Below are positions 15,514-23,619 of a stretch of 64,000 bases of DNA, piece by piece. The stretch is taken from NCBI GenBank assembly GCA_028714255.1, contig JAQTMR010000004.1:1-64000 (forward strand), given 5' to 3'. A model generated the notes under the pieces. The model did no database searches and had not been told where the DNA came from. It worked only from the letters and a program-made list of their open reading frames with translations. Source of the stretch: Phycisphaerae bacterium (GTDB lineage: Bacteria > Planctomycetota > Phycisphaerae > Sedimentisphaerales > Anaerobacaceae). The stretch's first letter is position 1. Each line of letters begins with the position of its first letter. Position numbers and translations under genes: made by a program.

Positions 15514-15634
15514 AAAAATAAACCTTCCCGGCAGCAGAACCTGACCGAAGTACCGATAAAAAACCACTGCCGAAGCATATTAAGGCAGAAAGAAGATTTT
15601 GTCAACAGGAGAAAATATTTTGTTCGATTTGGTA

Positions 15635-15663
15635 TTGACAAAAAGGATATGTTGTGGTATAAT
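15635..15663 (+). promoter_or_regulatory. trp operon promoter (perfect sigma-70 consensus)
   Basis: TTGACA at 15635-15640, a spacer of exactly 17 bases, and TATAAT at 15658-15663. Transcription should begin near 15670. Confidence 0.88.
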
Positions 15664-15672
15664 ATTACGATA

Positions 15673-15747
15673 ATGCAAATTGACCCAAGAAATTTGTTTG
15701 GTAGCTTCGACAAGCTCACTATGAATTGGTGGCGGCCTGCGGAATAG
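15673..15747 (+). CDS. trpL: trp leader peptide (trpL-like)
   Basis: A 24-codon frame that ends NWWRPAE-stop, with tandem Trp codons TGG TGG at 15727-15732. A shorter version from ATG 15721 encodes only MNWWRPAE. The WWR sequence near the end recalls the E. coli leader peptide (GWWRTS). No strong Shine-Dalgarno is seen before either Met; the first ATG would be almost leaderless. Its stop codon lies in the loop of the first hairpin of the attenuator, and the terminator and trpE follow, so its role is to sense charged tRNA-Trp by ribosome position rather than to make a functional product. Confidence 0.78.
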   Translation: MQIDPRNLFGSFDKLTMNWWRPAE

Positions 15748-15813
15748 AACCGGCGGGCGGCGTTAATTTGCTGTTGTAAAGTTATTTTAGATTGTTTTTG
15801 AAAGCGGCCTGTT
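15735..15813 (+). promoter_or_regulatory. trp attenuator: competing pause and antiterminator hairpins
   Basis: Region 1 (15735-15742, GCCTGCGG) pairs with region 2 (15750-15758, CCGGCGGGC, one bulged G). Region 2 (15752-15761) can instead pair with region 3 (15804-15813, GCGGCCTGTT) with nine of ten pairs including G-U. Region 3 also forms the terminator with region 4. A ribosome stalled at the Trp codons would cover region 1 and favour the 2:3 antiterminator. Confidence 0.75.
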
Positions 15814-15835
15814 GGAAAAACAGGCCGCTTTTTTT
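15802..15835 (+). terminator. trp attenuator terminator
   Basis: A perfect 12-bp stem AAGCGGCCTGTT / AACAGGCCGCTT, loop GGAAA, and a run of seven T at 15829-15835: a strong intrinsic terminator 125 bases before trpE. Confidence 0.9.
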
Positions 15836-15876
15836 GTTTGTATTTATGAGGGTTTGCGGATAAAAAGTGTAAGAAA

Positions 15877-15950
15877 TAAGCCACAGAGAGCACAGAGAAC
15901 ACAGAGAAAATAAAAAGAAAATGGATTCCCGCTTACGCGGGAATGACAGG
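15877..15950 (+). repeat. AGCCACAGAG repeat followed by GGATTCC...GGAATGACA palindrome
   Basis: 15877-15908 reads ATAAGCCACAGAGAGCACAG and onwards. 15923-15950 is GGATTCCCGC TTAC GCGGGAATGACA. Both lie between the attenuator terminator and trpE; the end of the palindrome provides the purine-rich bases before the trpE start. Confidence 0.75.
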
Positions 15951-15960
15951 GAAAGCCGGA

Positions 15961-17556
15961 ATGGATGATTACAGAGAAATAATAGCCAGTGCCCAGCCGG
16001 GACAAATCGTGCCGATAGTCAAAGAGATGGATATTGACGAGCCGGTGGATTTTTTTGCCAAGCTGAGCGACTACGGACGGGCCAAGAATTGTGCTCTGCT
16101 GGAGGCAAGCGATTACCTTGCGGAAAACGCGCTGAGCTTCGGGACGGGCAAGCCCGGGCTTTACATTACCGGAACAGGGGCCGACTTCAAAATCGCGGCC
16201 CTTAGCAACACCGGCAGGCGGATGATAGAGTATCTGTCGGGCAGGAAAGAAAAAATCTTCGGTTTTTGTGAATCGGTGGAATTCGGCCCGGATGCAATTG
16301 TCGGCCGAATTAAACATGATGAAGAAACAATAGATGAGCAATCGCGCCTAAAAAGCACGAACCAGATGGATGTGCTGCGGGCGGTCGCGTTTAGTTTCAG
16401 CCTGGCGAGCAAGCCTTTCCGCGTGACCTGCGGACTATTGGGGGCGCTAAGCTACGATTTCATAGACCAGTTCGAGAAACTTCCCGCCAGCGGAGATGAT
16501 TTGCTCGGCAATCCCGATTATGAACTTTATTTCGCCGACAATATATTCCTGTGCGACCACAAACAAAACAAAGGTTACGTTATCGTCAATTGCGTGATAA
16601 CCGACGGCGACCGTGAAACGGCAGTTGCCGAGGCGAAGGAGTGCTTCGAATCTTATTTCAACATCGCCAAAACAGCCGCACCGAAAGGCCAAAAATATAC
16701 CGGGCCGCCGGCAGCCGCTTCTACTGATACAAATCAGCAGGAGTATGAAAAAATGGTCAGTGACGCCAAGTGTCACATTGTCGATGGTGACATCTTTCAG
16801 GTCGTATTGAGCAGGACGAAGATAGAGCCTTGTCCCGATGAGCCGCTGGATGTTTACAAGCGTCTTAGAAAACTAAATCCTTCGCCTTATATGTTTTATC
16901 TAAACACGCCGAGGACGATATTGATGGGGTCAAGTCCTGAACTTAATCTGCGAGTCAGCGGCGGGGACAAGCGTGACGTAGAGATTCGGCCGATAGCGGG
17001 TACAAAGCCACGAGGCAGGGTCGGAGATAAAATCGACGCGGACACCGATTTCAGATACGAGGCGGAATTGAAGCTCGACCATAAAGAACTGGCGGAGCAT
17101 ATAATGCTGGTTGATTTGGCGAGAAACGATATTGCCAGGGTCGCTGAGCCGGGCAGCAGAGTCGTTACGGAGCTTCTGACGGCGGAAAAATACTCGGCGG
17201 TGCAGCATCTTGTAAGCAACGTAAAAGGTACGCTGGCAAAAGGTCTCGATGCTTTGAGCGCATATCTTGCGACGATGAATATGGGGACACTCACGGGAGC
17301 GCCGAAGATTGAGGCGATGAAAATAATCCGCAAACTCGAAAAAACCAAACGCGGGTACTACGGCGGAGCGGTTTGCTACCTGACGGTGGACGGCCAGTTC
17401 GACAGCTGTATTACCATAAGAAGCCTGCAGGTTAAAGACCATACCGCTTATATCCGGGCGGGAGCCGGCATAGTATATGACAGTGTTCCTAAAACTGAAT
17501 TCGAAGAAACGGAGCACAAGGCAAATTCCTGCATGCGTGCGATTCGAGGGGAATAA
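15961..17556 (+). CDS. trpE: anthranilate synthase component I
   Basis: A 531-residue chorismate-using subunit of anthranilate synthase, first enzyme of tryptophan synthesis. Start chosen at ATG 15961 (MDDYREII), because the upstream Met (15943) lies inside a dispersed repeat. Signature regions are ISPEL-type SSPELNLRVSG, RPIAGTKPRGR, LDHKELAEHIMLVDLARNDI, and GTLTGAPKIEAMKIIRKLE followed by YYGGAVCYL. The N-terminal feedback-site region begins at LLEASDYL rather than the usual LLES, so inhibition by Trp may differ. It forms the complex with TrpG encoded 4 bases later and is controlled by the attenuator upstream. Confidence 0.95.
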   Translation: MDDYREIIASAQPGQIVPIVKEMDIDEPVDFFAKLSDYGRAKNCALLEASDYLAENALSFGTGKPGLYITGTGADFKIAALSNTGRRMIEYLSGRKEKIFGFCESVEFGPDAIVGRIKHDEETIDEQSRLKSTNQMDVLRAVAFSFSLASKPFRVTCGLLGALSYDFIDQFEKLPASGDDLLGNPDYELYFADNIFLCDHKQNKGYVIVNCVITDGDRETAVAEAKECFESYFNIAKTAAPKGQKYTGPPAAASTDTNQQEYEKMVSDAKCHIVDGDIFQVVLSRTKIEPCPDEPLDVYKRLRKLNPSPYMFYLNTPRTILMGSSPELNLRVSGGDKRDVEIRPIAGTKPRGRVGDKIDADTDFRYEAELKLDHKELAEHIMLVDLARNDIARVAEPGSRVVTELLTAEKYSAVQHLVSNVKGTLAKGLDALSAYLATMNMGTLTGAPKIEAMKIIRKLEKTKRGYYGGAVCYLTVDGQFDSCITIRSLQVKDHTAYIRAGAGIVYDSVPKTEFEETEHKANSCMRAIRGE

Positions 17557-17560
17557 TCCT

Positions 17561-18178
17561 ATGAAAGAAAATATGAGAAAAGTCCTGTTTATAGATAACT
17601 TCGATTCGTTCACATATAATCTGGTCGATGATTTCTGCAAGCGCAACTGCGACGCGAAGGTATATCGGGCAGACACCAAACTGGAAGAGCTTAAGCGAGT
17701 GGTTGACGAGTTCAAACCAGACCTTCTTGTGATTTCGCCCGGGCCGGGGACACCCGACACGGCAGGCGTTACGCTGACAGCGATAGATTATTTCAAAGAC
17801 AAACTGCCTATATTCGGGGTTTGTTTGGGTCATCAGGCTATTACGCAACATTTCGGCGGGAAAATCAGTCACGCCCCGGTGCCGATGCACGGAAAGCCCT
17901 CGCGAATAACGCATACCGGCAAAGGGATATTCACAGGAGTGGAAAATCCGCTGCAGGCAGGACGCTATCACAGCCTTTGCTGCTATACGATGAAACTGCC
18001 GGGGTGTCTGGAACAAACAGCGGAGTTCGAGGGGATTGTTATGGGAATCCAACATAAGAAGCTGCCGATATTCGGTGTGCAGTTTCATCCGGAAAGCATT
18101 TTGACGCCTGCGGGCGGAAAAATAATCGAAAATATTTTGTCGATAGCAACCGAAAAGAAACAAAAAATAAGGCGTTGA
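17561..18178 (+). CDS. trpG: anthranilate synthase component II (glutamine amidotransferase)
   Basis: A 205-residue class I glutaminase that delivers ammonia to TrpE. The start at ATG 17561 has AGGGG 9 bases upstream; the frame is open further upstream only as overlap with trpE. All triad residues are present: nucleophile Cys in GVCLGHQAI, His and Glu in QFHPESILTP. FIDNFDSFTYNLVDDF is the typical opening. Because the same fold could serve para-aminobenzoate synthase, a dual role is possible, but its place between trpE and trpD makes anthranilate the main product. Confidence 0.94.
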   Translation: MKENMRKVLFIDNFDSFTYNLVDDFCKRNCDAKVYRADTKLEELKRVVDEFKPDLLVISPGPGTPDTAGVTLTAIDYFKDKLPIFGVCLGHQAITQHFGGKISHAPVPMHGKPSRITHTGKGIFTGVENPLQAGRYHSLCCYTMKLPGCLEQTAEFEGIVMGIQHKKLPIFGVQFHPESILTPAGGKIIENILSIATEKKQKIRR

Positions 18179-18180
18179 TA

Positions 18181-19203
18181 ATGGCGGGAATAACTGAATA
18201 TATCGAGCCGTTGTTGAAAGGTCAAAGCTTAAGCCTCGAACAGGCAGAGCAATTATTGGATATTATTTTCGAAGGCGAGATTAGCGAGGTCCAGATAGCG
18301 GCGTTTCTTACAGCGATGCGCATCAAGGGCGCAACGGCAGCGGAACTGGCGGGGCTTGCCAAATCGCTGCGGCAGCACGCCGTCAAAGTAGAAGTCGATA
18401 TCGACAACTTAATTGACACCTGCGGCACGGGAGGCGGCGCTGTTAAGACCTGCAATGTCTCGACAGCTTCGGCGATAGTGGCGGCTGGCGCAGGGGTATA
18501 TGTGGCTAAGCACGGCAATCGAGGGATAACCAGCAAGTGCGGCTCGGCGGACGTGCTCGAAGCATTGGGCGTTAAAATAGATGCCGGGGCCGAGACGGTG
18601 GCGGAATGTATAAAGCAGGCGCATATCGGCTTTATGTTCGCACCGGCGTTTCACCCGGCGATGAAATATGTTCAGCCAATCCGCAAGAGTCTGGGATTCA
18701 GGACGGCATTCAATATTCTCGGGCCTTTAACCAACCCGGCCGGCGTGCAGAGACAGGTGCTCGGTGTGGCGGATGAAAGCCTGATGGAAACGATAGCCGA
18801 GGCACTTAAGCTGCTGGGTACAAAAGTCGCAATGGTAGTTCACAGTAATGGGATGGATGAAATAAGCACGATGGGGACCACCAGAATAATAAAATTAAAC
18901 GAAGGCAAAATCGAAAGCTATGAAATAAACGCGGAAGATTTTGGAATCCCGCCTGCCGATATAAACGATTTGAAGGTAACCGACGCCAAGGCAAGCGCCA
19001 AGGTTCTCAAAGATATACTAAGCGATGAAGAAAGCGGGCCTCGCAGGGATATTGTTATACTGAACGCCGCTGCGGCGATAATCGTCGCGGGGCTGGCAAC
19101 TGATTTCGAATCGGCAATCAGGCAGGCAGATGTCTCTGTCAGCAACGGCAGGGCCCTGGCCTGTCTGGAAAATTTAATCGACGTTTCTAATAGTAAATGG
19201 TAA
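18181..19203 (+). CDS. trpD: anthranilate phosphoribosyltransferase
   Basis: A 340-residue enzyme that joins anthranilate to PRPP. The start ATG 18181 is 2 bases after the trpG stop (a TTG two codons earlier would overlap it). Conserved parts are DTCGTGGGAVKTCNVST (PRPP loop), KHGNRGITSKCGSADVLEALG and RTAFNILGPLTNPA. The final residues NSKW and the TAA stop are written by the first unit of a 7-base repeat array (TGGTAAA), so the original C-terminus may have been slightly different. The next expected gene, trpC, is absent. Confidence 0.95.
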   Translation: MAGITEYIEPLLKGQSLSLEQAEQLLDIIFEGEISEVQIAAFLTAMRIKGATAAELAGLAKSLRQHAVKVEVDIDNLIDTCGTGGGAVKTCNVSTASAIVAAGAGVYVAKHGNRGITSKCGSADVLEALGVKIDAGAETVAECIKQAHIGFMFAPAFHPAMKYVQPIRKSLGFRTAFNILGPLTNPAGVQRQVLGVADESLMETIAEALKLLGTKVAMVVHSNGMDEISTMGTTRIIKLNEGKIESYEINAEDFGIPPADINDLKVTDAKASAKVLKDILSDEESGPRRDIVILNAAAAIIVAGLATDFESAIRQADVSVSNGRALACLENLIDVSNSKW

Positions 19204-19253
19204 ATGGTGAATGGTAAATGGTAAATGGTGAATGGTGAATGGTGAATGGTGAT
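19190..19253. repeat. heptamer array (TGGTAAA/TGGTGAA type) at the trpD stop
   Basis: About nine 7-base units of TGGTAAA or TGGTGAA. The first unit encodes the last Trp and the stop of trpD (AAA TGG TAA). Confidence 0.85.
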
Positions 19254-19660
19254 TAATATGGAGTATGGAACTTTCGAGGACCTTGAAATTTATAAATCAG
19301 CAAGGGAATATAGGAAAAAGATATATAGCTTGGCAAAACAATTGCCTGAATTCGAAAAATATAATTTAGCGAATCAAATGCGACGAGCAGCAGTTTCCTT
19401 AACCAACAATATAGCTGAAGGCCATGGCAGGTTTCATTATCAGGAAAATATCCAGTTTTTAAGGCAGTCTAGAGGTTCGCTCGAAGAACTAATACGACGA
19501 TATTAATACTTGTATAGACGAAGACTATGCTGAGTTAACCCGGTTAGATGATTTGAAGAAGGAAGGATACGAACTATTGAAAAGACTAAATGGCTATGTC
19601 AAGTACTTACGCAGTTGTAAGCTGGCAGCAGTTAATAACCCCTGCTCAAACTCAACTTAA
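19246..19660 (+). pseudogene. frameshifted four-helix-bundle (S23 family) gene inside the trp operon
   Basis: Frame 1 begins MVINMEYGTFEDLEIYKSA, continues through NLANQMRRAAVSLTNNIAEGHG (family core) and stops at 19506 after RGSLEELIRRY. One base skipped at about 19495 restores the family ending: EELI then DDINTCIDEDYAELTRL and onward to a stop at 19660. An extra C near 19495 therefore breaks the gene, or it is a sequencing error. Both flanks are 7-base arrays, TGGTRAA before and its complement TTACCAR after. It occupies the place where trpC usually sits. It is distinct from the intact relative at 13002. Confidence 0.82.
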
Positions 19661-19665
19661 CTTGA

Positions 19666-19729
19666 CTAATTACCAATTACCAATTAGTTTACTAATTACT
19701 AATTACCAGTTACCAGTTACCAATAACGA
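19666..19729. repeat. heptamer array (ATTACCA/TACCAGT type) before trpF
   Basis: Nine or so 7-base units related to the complement of the array at 19190. It ends 2 bases before the trpF start and leaves trpF without a Shine-Dalgarno sequence. Confidence 0.8.
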
Positions 19730-19731
19730 AT

Positions 19732-20355
19732 ATGCTGATAGTAAAAGTTAAAATTTGCGGCATTACCAATTACGAAGACGCGGAAGCGGCGGTAGATATG
19801 GGCGCGGACATGCTGGGTTTTAACTTTTACCCGAAAAGTCCACGTTACATAGAACCGGCAAAAGCAGCGAAGGTAATAAGCAAACTGTCGGCGTTTACAG
19901 ATATTGTAGGCGTTTTCGTGAACGAATCGTTTGAGAAAATCCATGAAATAAAACAACAGTGCTATTTAAACTGGGTACAGCTGCACGGGGACGAGGACTC
20001 CGAGTTCTGCAGGAGGTTTCTTACACATAACGTAAAAATAATGAAAGCTATACGCGTGAAAGACCAAAAAGATATCGAAAGAGCGGAAAGCTTTTTCACC
20101 GACGCGATTCTGCTGGACGCCTTTGACCCTAAAAAATACGGCGGGACAGGCGTAAGCTTTGACTGGAATATCATAGGTCACATCGGCAAGCGTATTTTTC
20201 TGGCCGGCGGGATAAATCCGGATAATGCAGTAAAGGCTGTTGAATTAGGAGTTTACGGAATCGATGTGTGCAGCGGTATTGAACTGCGGCCCGGCAAAAA
20301 AGACAAAAGATTAATGAAGAAATTATTCGAAAATATACGGCATTTGAGAGGTTAG
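19732..20355 (+). CDS. trpF: phosphoribosylanthranilate isomerase
   Basis: A 207-residue TIM-barrel enzyme that makes CdRP from phosphoribosylanthranilate. The catalytic Cys is in VKICGITNYEDAEAA, the catalytic Asp in ILLDAFDPKKYGGTG, followed by FLAGGINPDNAVKA and GIDVCSGIE. Start at ATG 19732; an alternative Met is not available before the conserved KICG. No ribosome-binding site is seen because the region before it is a repeat array. The gene ends TTAG directly before an AGCCACAGAG repeat. Its product needs TrpC, which is not encoded in the window. Confidence 0.94.
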   Translation: MLIVKVKICGITNYEDAEAAVDMGADMLGFNFYPKSPRYIEPAKAAKVISKLSAFTDIVGVFVNESFEKIHEIKQQCYLNWVQLHGDEDSEFCRRFLTHNVKIMKAIRVKDQKDIERAESFFTDAILLDAFDPKKYGGTGVSFDWNIIGHIGKRIFLAGGINPDNAVKAVELGVYGIDVCSGIELRPGKKDKRLMKKLFENIRHLRG

Positions 20356-20433
20356 GAGCCACAGAGGTTTTTTAGCCACAGAGGGCACCCGGCTTCGCCT
20401 TCGGCTACGCCGAGGCGAGCAGAGAACACAGAG
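20356..20433 (+). repeat. AGCCACAGAG-family repeats with GC hairpin
   Basis: GAGCCACAGAGG, then TTTTAGCCACAGAGGGCACC, a CGGCTTCGCCTTCGGC insert and GAGAACACAGAGG. It lies between trpF and the ankyrin gene. Confidence 0.75.
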
Positions 20434-20463
20434 GTAAAGTAAAAAAGAAAAAAGGAGAATCCA

Positions 20464-21525
20464 ATGAAACGAATTCCGTTTTTTCTAATGTGTGTTTCTT
20501 TGATACCCACAGCTTTTGCTGACATCAATACGCCAGATAAAGACGCTCAATTAACTGGTGCCGCAAAAAGCACTGATGCCAATACCGAAAGTTTTGCGCT
20601 GCACAAAGCTGCTTATGAAGGCAACCTTGAGGAAGTCAAAGCCCTTATCGCCAAAGGCGCTGATGTCAACGCCAAATGGTCGCGTGATTTTAATTATACG
20701 CCGCTGCATTTCGCTGTTATTAAAGGGAATGAAGGTATAGTAAAAATGTTTGACGACTTCAAAGAGGCAAAAGACATAACAAAAAATGTAGATTATCCCA
20801 GATTATATACAGACATAGTGTCTCTGCTGCTTGCCAATGGTGCCGATGTTAACGCAAAAAATTTACATGGCCAGACCCCGCTGCACATGGCAAGTTATCA
20901 CGGCTATTTAGATATGACTGAACTGCTTATCGCTAAAGGAGCCGATGTAAACGCCAAAGATAACAGTGGTACAACGCCTTTGTCTATTGCTGCTTCGGAA
21001 AATCATAAAGATATAGAAAATATTCTCATTGCAAAAGGCGCTAAAGTTGACATTTTCACAGCATCGGCTACGGGCGATATTGAACGCGTCAGAGATTTTC
21101 TGAGAAACGACCCTAATATGGTTAATGCTACTCAAGGCGATTACAATACCACACCGCTGCACTACGCGACATCCAGCGGGCAAATAGAAATGGTAAAGTT
21201 TCTCATTGAAAAAGGAGCAGATGTTAATGCCGGCTATCCCCAAAAGCCGACACCATTACACCTTGCTGCATTGCAAGGTCACCTGGAAGTGGCGGAAATG
21301 CTCATTAACAAAGGTGCTGAGGTTAATGCAAAAGACAACTTTGGTTTTACGCCTCTGTTTTTAGCCACAGAAAAAGGCAGCAAAGATATGGTAGAATTAC
21401 TTATTGCCAAAGGTACCGATGTTAATGTCAAGAATAACAATGGCAAAACAGCGTTAGGTATGGCAAAAGAGAGAGGCCGCACAGATATTGTGGAGCTTCT
21501 TGAAAAGGCCGGGGCAAAGGAATAA
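20464..21525 (+). CDS. secreted ankyrin-repeat protein
   Basis: A 353-residue protein with a signal peptide (about residues 1-19, cleavage after AFA) followed by about nine ankyrin repeats of the TPLHxAxxxGHxxxAxxLIxKGADVNAK type, so it works outside the cytoplasm as a protein-binding scaffold. One insertion between the second and third repeats (KMFDDFKEAKDITKNVDYP) makes that repeat longer. AAAGGAG lies 5 bases before the start. It has no known link to tryptophan synthesis and interrupts trpF-trpB; repeats of the AGCCACAGAG and GGATTCC families border it. Partner and function are unknown. Confidence 0.85.
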   Translation: MKRIPFFLMCVSLIPTAFADINTPDKDAQLTGAAKSTDANTESFALHKAAYEGNLEEVKALIAKGADVNAKWSRDFNYTPLHFAVIKGNEGIVKMFDDFKEAKDITKNVDYPRLYTDIVSLLLANGADVNAKNLHGQTPLHMASYHGYLDMTELLIAKGADVNAKDNSGTTPLSIAASENHKDIENILIAKGAKVDIFTASATGDIERVRDFLRNDPNMVNATQGDYNTTPLHYATSSGQIEMVKFLIEKGADVNAGYPQKPTPLHLAALQGHLEVAEMLINKGAEVNAKDNFGFTPLFLATEKGSKDMVELLIAKGTDVNVKNNNGKTALGMAKERGRTDIVELLEKAGAKE

Positions 21526-21584
21526 TTTCGATTTTTGGTTTCGGATTGAAGATTGTAGATTTGGACACAGAATAAAAAGAAATG

Positions 21585-21610
21585 GATTCCTGCTTTCGCA
21601 GGAATGACAA
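21585..21610 (+). repeat. GGATTCC...GGAATGACA palindrome before trpB
   Basis: Same core as 14590. It lies 13 bases before trpB; the AAGGGG that follows acts as the trpB ribosome-binding site. Confidence 0.75.
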
Positions 21611-21623
21611 GGGGAAAAATTAT

Positions 21624-22802
21624 ATGAGATATAAAGGCAGGTTCGGAGATTACGGCGGGTTCTATGTGCCGGAGGTTTTGATACCAGTTCTGGAAGAATT
21701 AGAAGAAGCGTTTTATCGTTTCTATCAAGACAAACAGTTCGTAACCGAACTTGAGTATCTCTCGAAAGATTACGCCGGCAGGCCAAGCCCGCTATACTTC
21801 GCGAAAAGGTTCAGCGAGCACGTCGGTTTTAAGGTTTATATAAAACGCGAAGACCTTCTGCACGGCGGAGCACACAAGGTCAACAACACGCTCGGTCAGG
21901 GACTTCTGGCGAAATATATGGGCAAGACCAAACTTATCGCCGAGACCGGCGCGGGCCAGCACGGCCTGGCAACGGCGATGATTGGCGCACTGTTCGGAAT
22001 GGAAACAAAAATCTTTATGGGTAAAATCGACATCGAACGGCAAAGCGTCAACGTCCATAAGATGAAACTGTGCGGCGCAGAGGTCGTGCCAGTCGAAGGC
22101 GGGACAGGTACACTCAAAGACGCCATCAACGACGCCCTTCGTTACTGGACTGCCCACGTTACCGATACGTTTTATCTTTTCGGCTCAGCGTGCGGGCCGC
22201 ATCCGTATCCGACAATAGTGAAACACTTCCAAAGCTGTATCGGCAAAGAGGCAAGGCAGCAGTGCATCGACAAATTAGGCAAATTGCCCGATATGGTTGT
22301 CGCATGTGTAGGCGGCGGCAGCAACGCGATAGGCATCTTTTCAGGTTTTGTGGATGATAAAGACGTAAAGTTAATCGGCGTCGAAGCCGGCGGCAGGAGT
22401 GTAGCCGAGGGCAAACACGCCGCGACGCTGGTAGCGGGGCGAGTTGGTATTTTGCACGGGGCAAAATCCTATCTGCTGCAGGATGCCGAGGGACAGGTTT
22501 ATGAAACCGAATCGGTAAGCGCGGGGCTGGATTACCCGGCTGTCGGGCCGGAGCATTGTCTGCTGAAAGATATGGGCAGGGCCCAATATGTCGCAGCGGA
22601 AGACGAAGAGGTTCTCGACGCGTTCGAGCTGTTGAGTAAAACCGAGGGAATACTGCCGGCGCTGGAAAGCTCGCACGCTTTGGCATACCTTATAAGCCAA
22701 AAAGGCAAATTGGCCCCGGAACAAATAGTGGTAGTGAACCTTTCCGGTAGAGGCGACAAAGATGTTGGAATCGTGGAAAAATATCGACCCCTTGAAAAAT
22801 AA
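21624..22802 (+). CDS. trpB: tryptophan synthase beta subunit
   Basis: A 392-residue PLP enzyme that condenses indole with serine. Start at ATG 21624 ([19 protein letters not shown]); the frame upstream to 21582 is translation of a dispersed palindrome and is not part of the protein. The PLP Lys is in HGGAHKVNN, the catalytic Glu in AETGAGQHG, and the phosphate loop is GGGSNAIG. It is the canonical TrpB1 type that pairs with TrpA (encoded 16 bases downstream). Confidence 0.96.
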
Positions 22803-22818
22803 TTAAGGCGTATTATTT

Positions 22819-23619
22819 ATGAAGACATATAAAGAACTTTTTTCCGAATTAAACAGAACGGCACTGATACCTTTTTTCGTAATCGGCGACCCTGATTTCG
22901 ATACCAGTTTTGAAATCGTTAAGACCGCTATCGACGCAGGTGCGGATATTTTAGAGCTTGGTATTCCGTTCTCCGACCCGATAGCGGATGGGCCTACGAT
23001 TCAAAAGGCCGATATCCGGGCAAGGAAAAGCGGATTGACTGTCGCGAAAGCGCGGGAGTTCATCCGAAAAGTCAAAGACTACAAGGACATCCCGATAGGA
23101 TTGTTGATGTATTACAACCTGATTTACCAATATGGGACGGAAAAGTTTTTCAGCGATTTTTACAAAGCAGGCGTTAACAGCGTATTAGTCGCTGATTTGA
23201 GTATCGACGACGCGGATGAAGTCGTACCGCCTGCGACCGAAGCGGGACTCGATACCGTCTTTATGGTCACGCCAAACACCGATAAGGAAAGAATGAAACG
23301 AATTGCCTCGAAGACCACAGGTTTTATTTACGCAGTGTCACTGTTCGGCGTAACCGGCAGCAGAGAAAGACTCTCCGGAGAGGTTGGTGGGCTGGTTAAA
23401 AAGTTAAAAGAAGTAACTTCCGTGCCGATTTGCGTTGGATTTGGAATCAGCAAACCCGAACACGCGGCGGAAGTAGCCGGTGCCGGTGCAGACGGCGTAA
23501 TCATCGGCTCGAAAATAGTGCAGTTAATTGAAAACAATTTAGGCAACAAGAAAAAATGCTTATCTGAAATTTCAAAATTTATAGGTGAAATTAGAAAAGC
23601 AATTGAAACTCGGGCGTGA
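22819..23619 (+). CDS. trpA: tryptophan synthase alpha subunit
   Basis: A 266-residue TIM barrel that cleaves indole-3-glycerol phosphate to indole. Catalytic Glu is in ILELGIPFSDP and Asp in IADGPTIQ; the flexible loop region is YAVSLFGVTGSR and the phosphate site GFGISKPEH plus GVIIGSKIV. The FVIGDPD segment replaces the more common FVTAGDP. It ends the operon. Since trpA needs the TrpC product, an indoleglycerol-phosphate synthase must exist elsewhere if the pathway works. Confidence 0.95.
   Translation: MKTYKELFSELNRTALIPFFVIGDPDFDTSFEIVKTAIDAGADILELGIPFSDPIADGPTIQKADIRARKSGLTVAKAREFIRKVKDYKDIPIGLLMYYNLIYQYGTEKFFSDFYKAGVNSVLVADLSIDDADEVVPPATEAGLDTVFMVTPNTDKERMKRIASKTTGFIYAVSLFGVTGSRERLSGEVGGLVKKLKEVTSVPICVGFGISKPEHAAEVAGAGADGVIIGSKIVQLIENNLGNKKKCLSEISKFIGEIRKAIETRA

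Follow-up and report, generated by a model that had tools for sequence, protein, structure and literature searches.

Positions 15635 to 15836 of the window (the whole 64,000-nucleotide stretch analysed, contig 4 of a 2.41-Mb genome) were read, with a probability of about 0.93, as a ribosome-mediated (Yanofsky-type) transcription attenuator of the trp operon. The region holds a promoter, a short ORF with Trp codons and an intrinsic terminator ahead of a biosynthetic operon, and the arrangement is conserved in relatives. The earlier note on this DNA had called it a textbook attenuator of this type, a reading now supported by the Trp codons of the leader, the terminator and three covarying helices in relatives. 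Its impression of a planctomycete-like genome was also right: the named relatives of TrpE (66-88% identity) were Planctomycetota/Phycisphaerae/Sedimentisphaerales MAGs. Positions are collected in Table 1.

Table 1. Positions of the attenuator parts and of the trp genes in the window.
Feature	Position	Strand	Basis
Sigma-70 type promoter TTGACA-17-TATAAT, extended -10 TG	15635..15663	+	12/12 match
Predicted transcription start zone and leader ATG (15673-15675)	15670..15675	+	5' UTR of 0-3 nt (leaderless), predicted
Leader peptide ORF, 24 codons, MQIDPRNLFGSFDKLTMNWWRPAE	15673..15747	+	stop TAG 15745-15747; relatives have homologous WW/WWW leaders
Segment 0, 5' end of leader ORF, partner of 2'	15675..15686	+	folding, permutation, alignment
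In-frame insertion of 24 nt, AGCTTCGACAAGCTCACTATGAAT, copy of a dispersed repeat (codons 11-18)	15703..15726	+	missing in L010, L011, L042
Region 1	15732..15742	+	folding; covariation
Region 2, partner of 1 or of 3	15750..15761	+	folding; covariation
Segment 2', partner of segment 0	15759..15771	+	folding, permutation, alignment
3:4 intrinsic terminator hairpin with T7	15800..15836	+	each of the 83 relatives scored has one; median energy -19.8 kcal/mol
Region 3	15804..15815	+	folding; covariation
trpE	15961..17556	+	Pfam Chorismate_bind and Anth_synt_I_N
trpG	17477-18178	+	Pfam; gene order in relatives
trpD	18175-19203	+	Pfam; gene order in relatives
trpF	19732-20355	+	Pfam; gene order in relatives
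trpB	21582-22802	+	Pfam; gene order in relatives
trpA	22819-23619	+	Pfam; gene order in relatives

The comparison set comprised 87 distinct trpE loci from MAGs of the same order (Phycisphaerae/Sedimentisphaerales), each with up to 500 nt of upstream sequence. A promoter matching at least 9 of 12 positions, then a short ORF containing neighbouring Trp codons and then a terminator were found in 83 of them. Promoter scores at these loci ranged from 9 to 12 of 12, and the spacer was 17 bp in 81 of the 83. Leader ORFs were 16-28 codons long, with the terminator 56-97 nt past the stop codon. The Trp codons formed runs of three (51 loci), two (30) or four (1), and W-x-W in one locus. The conserved WW leader that the earlier note had proposed to look for before trpE was thus present as a run of two to four in 82 of the 83, with a terminator in every one. 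Lack of conservation of the Trp codons or terminator, which the same note had named as grounds against its reading, was looked for in these relatives and the opposite was found, with the helices covarying as well. As to the four remaining loci, L120 begins inside the promoter and has the leader, L051 is N-masked and ends WWWPAG, L115 has one Trp codon and L121 has two that are separated. A Trp-containing leader was also present in 20 of 20 additional upstream regions, some of which duplicate loci already counted. Dinucleotide shuffling of the same upstream regions (435 shuffles) gave 17 sequences with any Trp-rich short ORF and 1 with such an ORF behind a promoter; set against 83 of 87 real loci, this argues that the leader architecture is not due to chance.

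The earlier note's perfect TTGACA-17-TATAAT was confirmed as the sole 12/12 promoter match in 16 kb (TTGACA at 15635-15640, TATAAT at 15658-15663). The gap between the -10 box and the ATG was 9 nt in the window and 6-13 nt (mode 9) in relatives (n=83). Among the 48 loci where this gap is 9 nt, its seventh base was A or G in 47, followed mostly by two pyrimidines and the ATG, which suggests that transcription starts 0-3 nt 5' of the AUG. No Shine-Dalgarno site fits between this predicted start and the leader AUG; for the gap, the median anti-SD energy was 0.9 kcal/mol, versus -4.0 kcal/mol for the region upstream of trpE. Because the AUG lies so close to the -10 box, the leader is probably translated leaderless.

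At seven loci from other families of the order (L103, L105, L106, L107, L120, L163 and L165) a palindrome, GTTTCT-N6-AGAAAC, spans the leader start codon. It was not seen in the window's family. Because the palindrome persists even without the ATG (L163, L165), it could serve as operator for a trp repressor. In L163 and L164 (family f3, single-contig genomes) GTA stands in place of the leaderless ATG, and the start of the leader (..YWCWLPEK) lies further downstream, preceded by a Shine-Dalgarno-like AAGGAAAAA; initiation seems to have changed there from leaderless to Shine-Dalgarno.

The earlier note had offered a leader ORF of 24 or 8 codons with tandem Trp codons. The longer one was borne out as MQIDPRNLFGSFDKLTMNWWRPAE, with Trp codons 19-20 at 15727-15732. 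The ATG of the 8-codon ORF comes from an insertion that relatives lack; the 24-codon frame is therefore ancestral, and the shorter ORF arose incidentally when a repeat was inserted. In the three nearest relatives the leader reads MQI.R.NLFGWWRPAE, and the window has eight additional codons between Gly10 and the Trp codons. On this comparison, a dispersed repeat recently inserted in frame accounts for the eight codons. The repeat core, CTTCGACAAGCTCA, had 39 genome matches at no more than one mismatch, versus 2 for the reversed pattern. The insertion is in frame, and the Trp-to-hairpin geometry is unchanged. The inserted repeat, a dispersed element lodged inside a regulatory leader ORF, is palindromic (AGCTT CGAC AAGCT).

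Downstream, three mutually exclusive helices (1:2, 2:3 and 3:4) are present, as in a ribosome-mediated trp attenuator. The loop of the 1:2 hairpin contains the stop codon, as the earlier note had it (TAG 15745-15747 inside 15732-15742/15751-15761), and regions 1 and 3 do have GCGGCCTG in common. Its count of nine of ten pairs for 2:3 was slightly low, the pairing itself being sound, with 11 pairs and one mismatch (15750-15761/15804-15815). The terminator with seven T likewise stood, its stem lengthening from the 12 bp given there to 14 pairs when G-U is counted (15800-15813/15819-15832). This hairpin had a folding energy of -24.1 kcal/mol (z -5.8), and 0 of 200 shuffles were as good. Across 65 aligned loci, standard pairs occupied 87% of cells in 1:2, 94% in 2:3 and 95% in 3:4, compared with 19-52% in controls in which the partner was slid. 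Cells in which both sides had changed (compensatory) exceeded those of all 500 shuffles for each helix; these shuffles ignore the relatedness of the loci, whereas the slid controls do not.

A fifth segment was recognised at the 5' end of the transcript, which paired with the stretch following region 2 already in the initial folding of the window. Leader codons 2-7 (segment 0) pair with the stretch directly 3' of region 2 (segment 2'). Over the 83 loci, codons 1-9 against this stretch gave a median of -13.7 kcal/mol, and shuffles -8.2 kcal/mol. When partners were permuted among loci, 0 of 20,000 permutations equalled the real sum (z -10), and none was as good when permutation was limited to 57 divergent loci without the common sequence. 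When 44 loci were aligned, 0:2' cells were paired in 86.5% of cases, versus 28-46% when slid. Both-sides-changed pairs were few in this alignment (10 cells, a number matched by 5 of 500 shuffles), so the permutation over divergent loci is the chief support for the helix. Wholly different sequences still pair in L082, L090 and L093. Since 1:2 lies within 0:2', and 0:2' together with 2:3 would make a pseudoknot, the 0:2' helix should make termination the default without a ribosome and close the start region once 2' has been made.

The effect of a ribosome was assessed in silico, assuming an E. coli-like footprint, and masking was scored by explicit 2:3 energies. A measure of masking based on all upstream pairing lacked specificity and was dropped in favour of these energies. 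A ribosome at the stop codon changed the median 2:3 energy from -19.7 to -6.9 kcal/mol, with a loss of at least 5 kcal/mol in 82 of the 83 loci. For the window, RNA was folded to 15818, where region 3 has been made and region 4 has not. The 2:3 helix had a probability of 0.77 when either Trp codon occupied the A site, and of 0 both when the ribosome stood at the stop and when there was none; the codon positions entered in this folding were one base too high, which should be harmless for a 30-nt footprint. In this modelling a ribosome at Trp frees region 2, and one at the stop masks it. The insertion in the window puts the Trp codons farther from the start of the transcript, segment 0 consequently lies wholly outside a stalled ribosome, and full-length thermodynamic folding of this leader with a stalled ribosome preferred 0:2' plus 3:4. 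Antitermination would therefore depend on 2:3 forming first, that is, on kinetics. Kinetic reliance on an earlier-forming antiterminator is normal for attenuators.

From the parts present, their conservation and their covariation we infer the transcription start, translation, stalling, termination and Trp response as follows. Transcription would start at, or just before, the leader AUG, and a pioneer ribosome would load onto the bare 5' end and translate the leader. With charged tRNA-Trp scarce, it would stall at codons 19-20 and cover region 1; 2:3 would then form, the terminator would be blocked and RNA polymerase would proceed into trpE. With Trp plentiful, the ribosome would reach the stop codon and cover region 2, permitting the 3:4 terminator. 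With no ribosome, 1:2 and the long-range 0:2' would sequester region 2 and termination would be the default; 0:2' would also shut the start region against later ribosomes.

Other readings of the same parts were weighed. The short ORF and terminator might instead yield a small mRNA or sRNA acting in trans, comparable to peTrpL/rnTrpL of Sinorhizobium meliloti, with attenuation in cis secondary or absent. Leaderless trpL with trans functions is known in that organism (PMC7298713), the window's family conserves the amino acids of the N-terminal codons (M[RK]QINRKNT), and codons 6-9 had an excess of third-position changes (49 of 96, p 2.6e-4). However, codons 2-7 lie within the 0:2' RNA helix, which accounts for most of this conservation, and selection on the peptide was rejected as its main source; codons 8-9 alone had a modest third-position excess (24 of 49 changes). 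The 2:3 antiterminator pairing, unneeded for a trans role, is conserved, and a trans role would be an addition to attenuation, not a replacement for it. We consider this reading unlikely.

Sensing by direct tRNA binding (T-box) or by a protein (TRAP-like) in place of a translating ribosome was judged very improbable. Such systems, too, are found ahead of trp genes and have a terminator/antiterminator switch at their end. Against them, no Rfam family, T-box included, was found at threshold in the window and six relatives, and the Rfam matches at E values up to 10 in 15620-15970 were all far below the family thresholds. Repeated GAG/UAG triplets were not seen by eye, and the WW codons are kept in frame with the start and stop and at a fixed distance to the hairpins. 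Next to no credence was given to a constitutive terminator between divergent genes accompanied by a chance Trp-rich ORF. An intergenic region beside the divergent kdsB is a usual site for a terminator, but here both promoter and terminator are directed into trpE, the combination of promoter and Trp-rich ORF was rare in the shuffles (1/435), and order-wide conservation of the Trp codons and all helices refutes the proposal.

Downstream of the leader, the operon under control of the putative attenuator is trpEGDF..BA, with trpG to trpA spanning 17477..23619 (+). The trpE start was taken as ATG 15961, which is kept in relatives; the start at 15943 in the ORF list sits in a repeat. This second dispersed repeat (CCACAGAGA... 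and GGATTCCCGC..GCGGGAATGA) occupies 15879-15950 between terminator and trpE and is the source of the misleading upstream ATG; parts of it were found more than 20 times genome-wide. The trpD-trpF gap (19203-19732) contains a truncated ORF for a 23S rRNA-intervening-sequence protein (PF05635) with tandem and inverted repeats on its flanks, and an ankyrin-repeat protein gene (20464-21525) is inserted between trpF and trpB. The operon lacks trpC, which is located on contig 2 of the same genome (G000); none was seen in the fetched trp loci of relatives. Upstream of the displaced trpC there was no Trp-rich ORF, and no further attenuator copies were found in this genome.

The E. coli trp attenuator has tandem Trp codons, a stop codon in or close to the 1:2 loop, mutually exclusive helices 1:2, 2:3 and 3:4, and an intrinsic terminator followed by trpE. 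The present region shares all these with the enteric system (RF00513) and differs from it in having no Shine-Dalgarno site, in its conserved 0:2' and in its planctomycete host. Rfam Trp_leader (RF00513) gave no match at the gathering score in the window and six relatives, nor down to E 10 in 15620-15970. A leaderless start would not be unprecedented, since trpL of S. meliloti and several leaders of S. lividans are leaderless. In S. meliloti and relatives, trpL mRNA starts at the AUG, carries consecutive Trp codons and attenuates trpE(G) (PMC7298713); there is no evident homology past the Trp run to this alphaproteobacterial leader, and the trans functions are those of S. meliloti. Leaderless leader peptides also occur in Actinobacteria, for example S. 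lividans leuL/thrL (PMC8079986). In ilvBNC of C. glutamicum the H1 hairpin blocks leader initiation and serves as an anti-antiterminator (PMC11857589), a published parallel to 0:2', which is proposed to do the same job. These actinobacterial leader ORFs are alike in being leaderless but serve other amino acids in another phylum.

A covariance model matched 43 of the 298 genomes of the class, all within the same order; the model was insensitive and missed members of the order clearly bearing the leader, leaving absence elsewhere unproven. Its lone match outside the order among 392 genomes of the phylum (L128) was a terminator without leader or trpE and was rejected as false. In other orders, W-rich ORFs behind promoter-like sites precede trpE in family f10 (3/3, WWWRW/WLWRW) and in some members of f16, mostly without an evident intrinsic terminator. 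The W-rich leaderless ORFs of f10 (L169, L182, L183) are followed by strong GC hairpins without a T run; attenuation there is possibly Rho-dependent or translational. Within the window's own order, the leaders of genus g49 (L133, L134, L135, L137) end YWRRPQA or YWWRPQA and the terminator is retained. The single Trp codon of some g49 members may confer weak Trp sensitivity. Tentatively, a class-wide Phycisphaerae variant could be envisaged, with leaderless trp attenuators in which a conserved 0:2' admits the pioneer ribosome only and termination is the default state. On this view the W-rich leaderless form would have arisen before the order did, and individual lineages would have altered its output and its type of start; W-rich leaders precede trpE in two further families of the class as well, in some cases with no evident intrinsic terminator.

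A 2010 paper stated that Proteobacteria and Actinobacteria had been the only groups with known leader-peptide attenuation, and itself added Firmicutes (PMC2965389). No described case in planctomycetes was found in the literature, and as far as our search shows this would be the first for the phylum; the order-wide conservation and the start architecture, with a probable leaderless start and a conserved, putatively start-sequestering helix, are the other new points. The predicted logic of the attenuator is ordinary and its comparative support is good. Conservation across the order implies that the attenuator is old. The comparative set of leaders (WW, WWW, WCW, single W, leaderless and Shine-Dalgarno) provides material for following attenuator evolution. 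Both the internal compartments of planctomycetes and a possible nuclear-like body in them are under debate (PMC5287468, PMC5394234). As attenuation needs a ribosome close behind RNA polymerase, the attenuator would make transcription-translation coupling directly testable in these bacteria.
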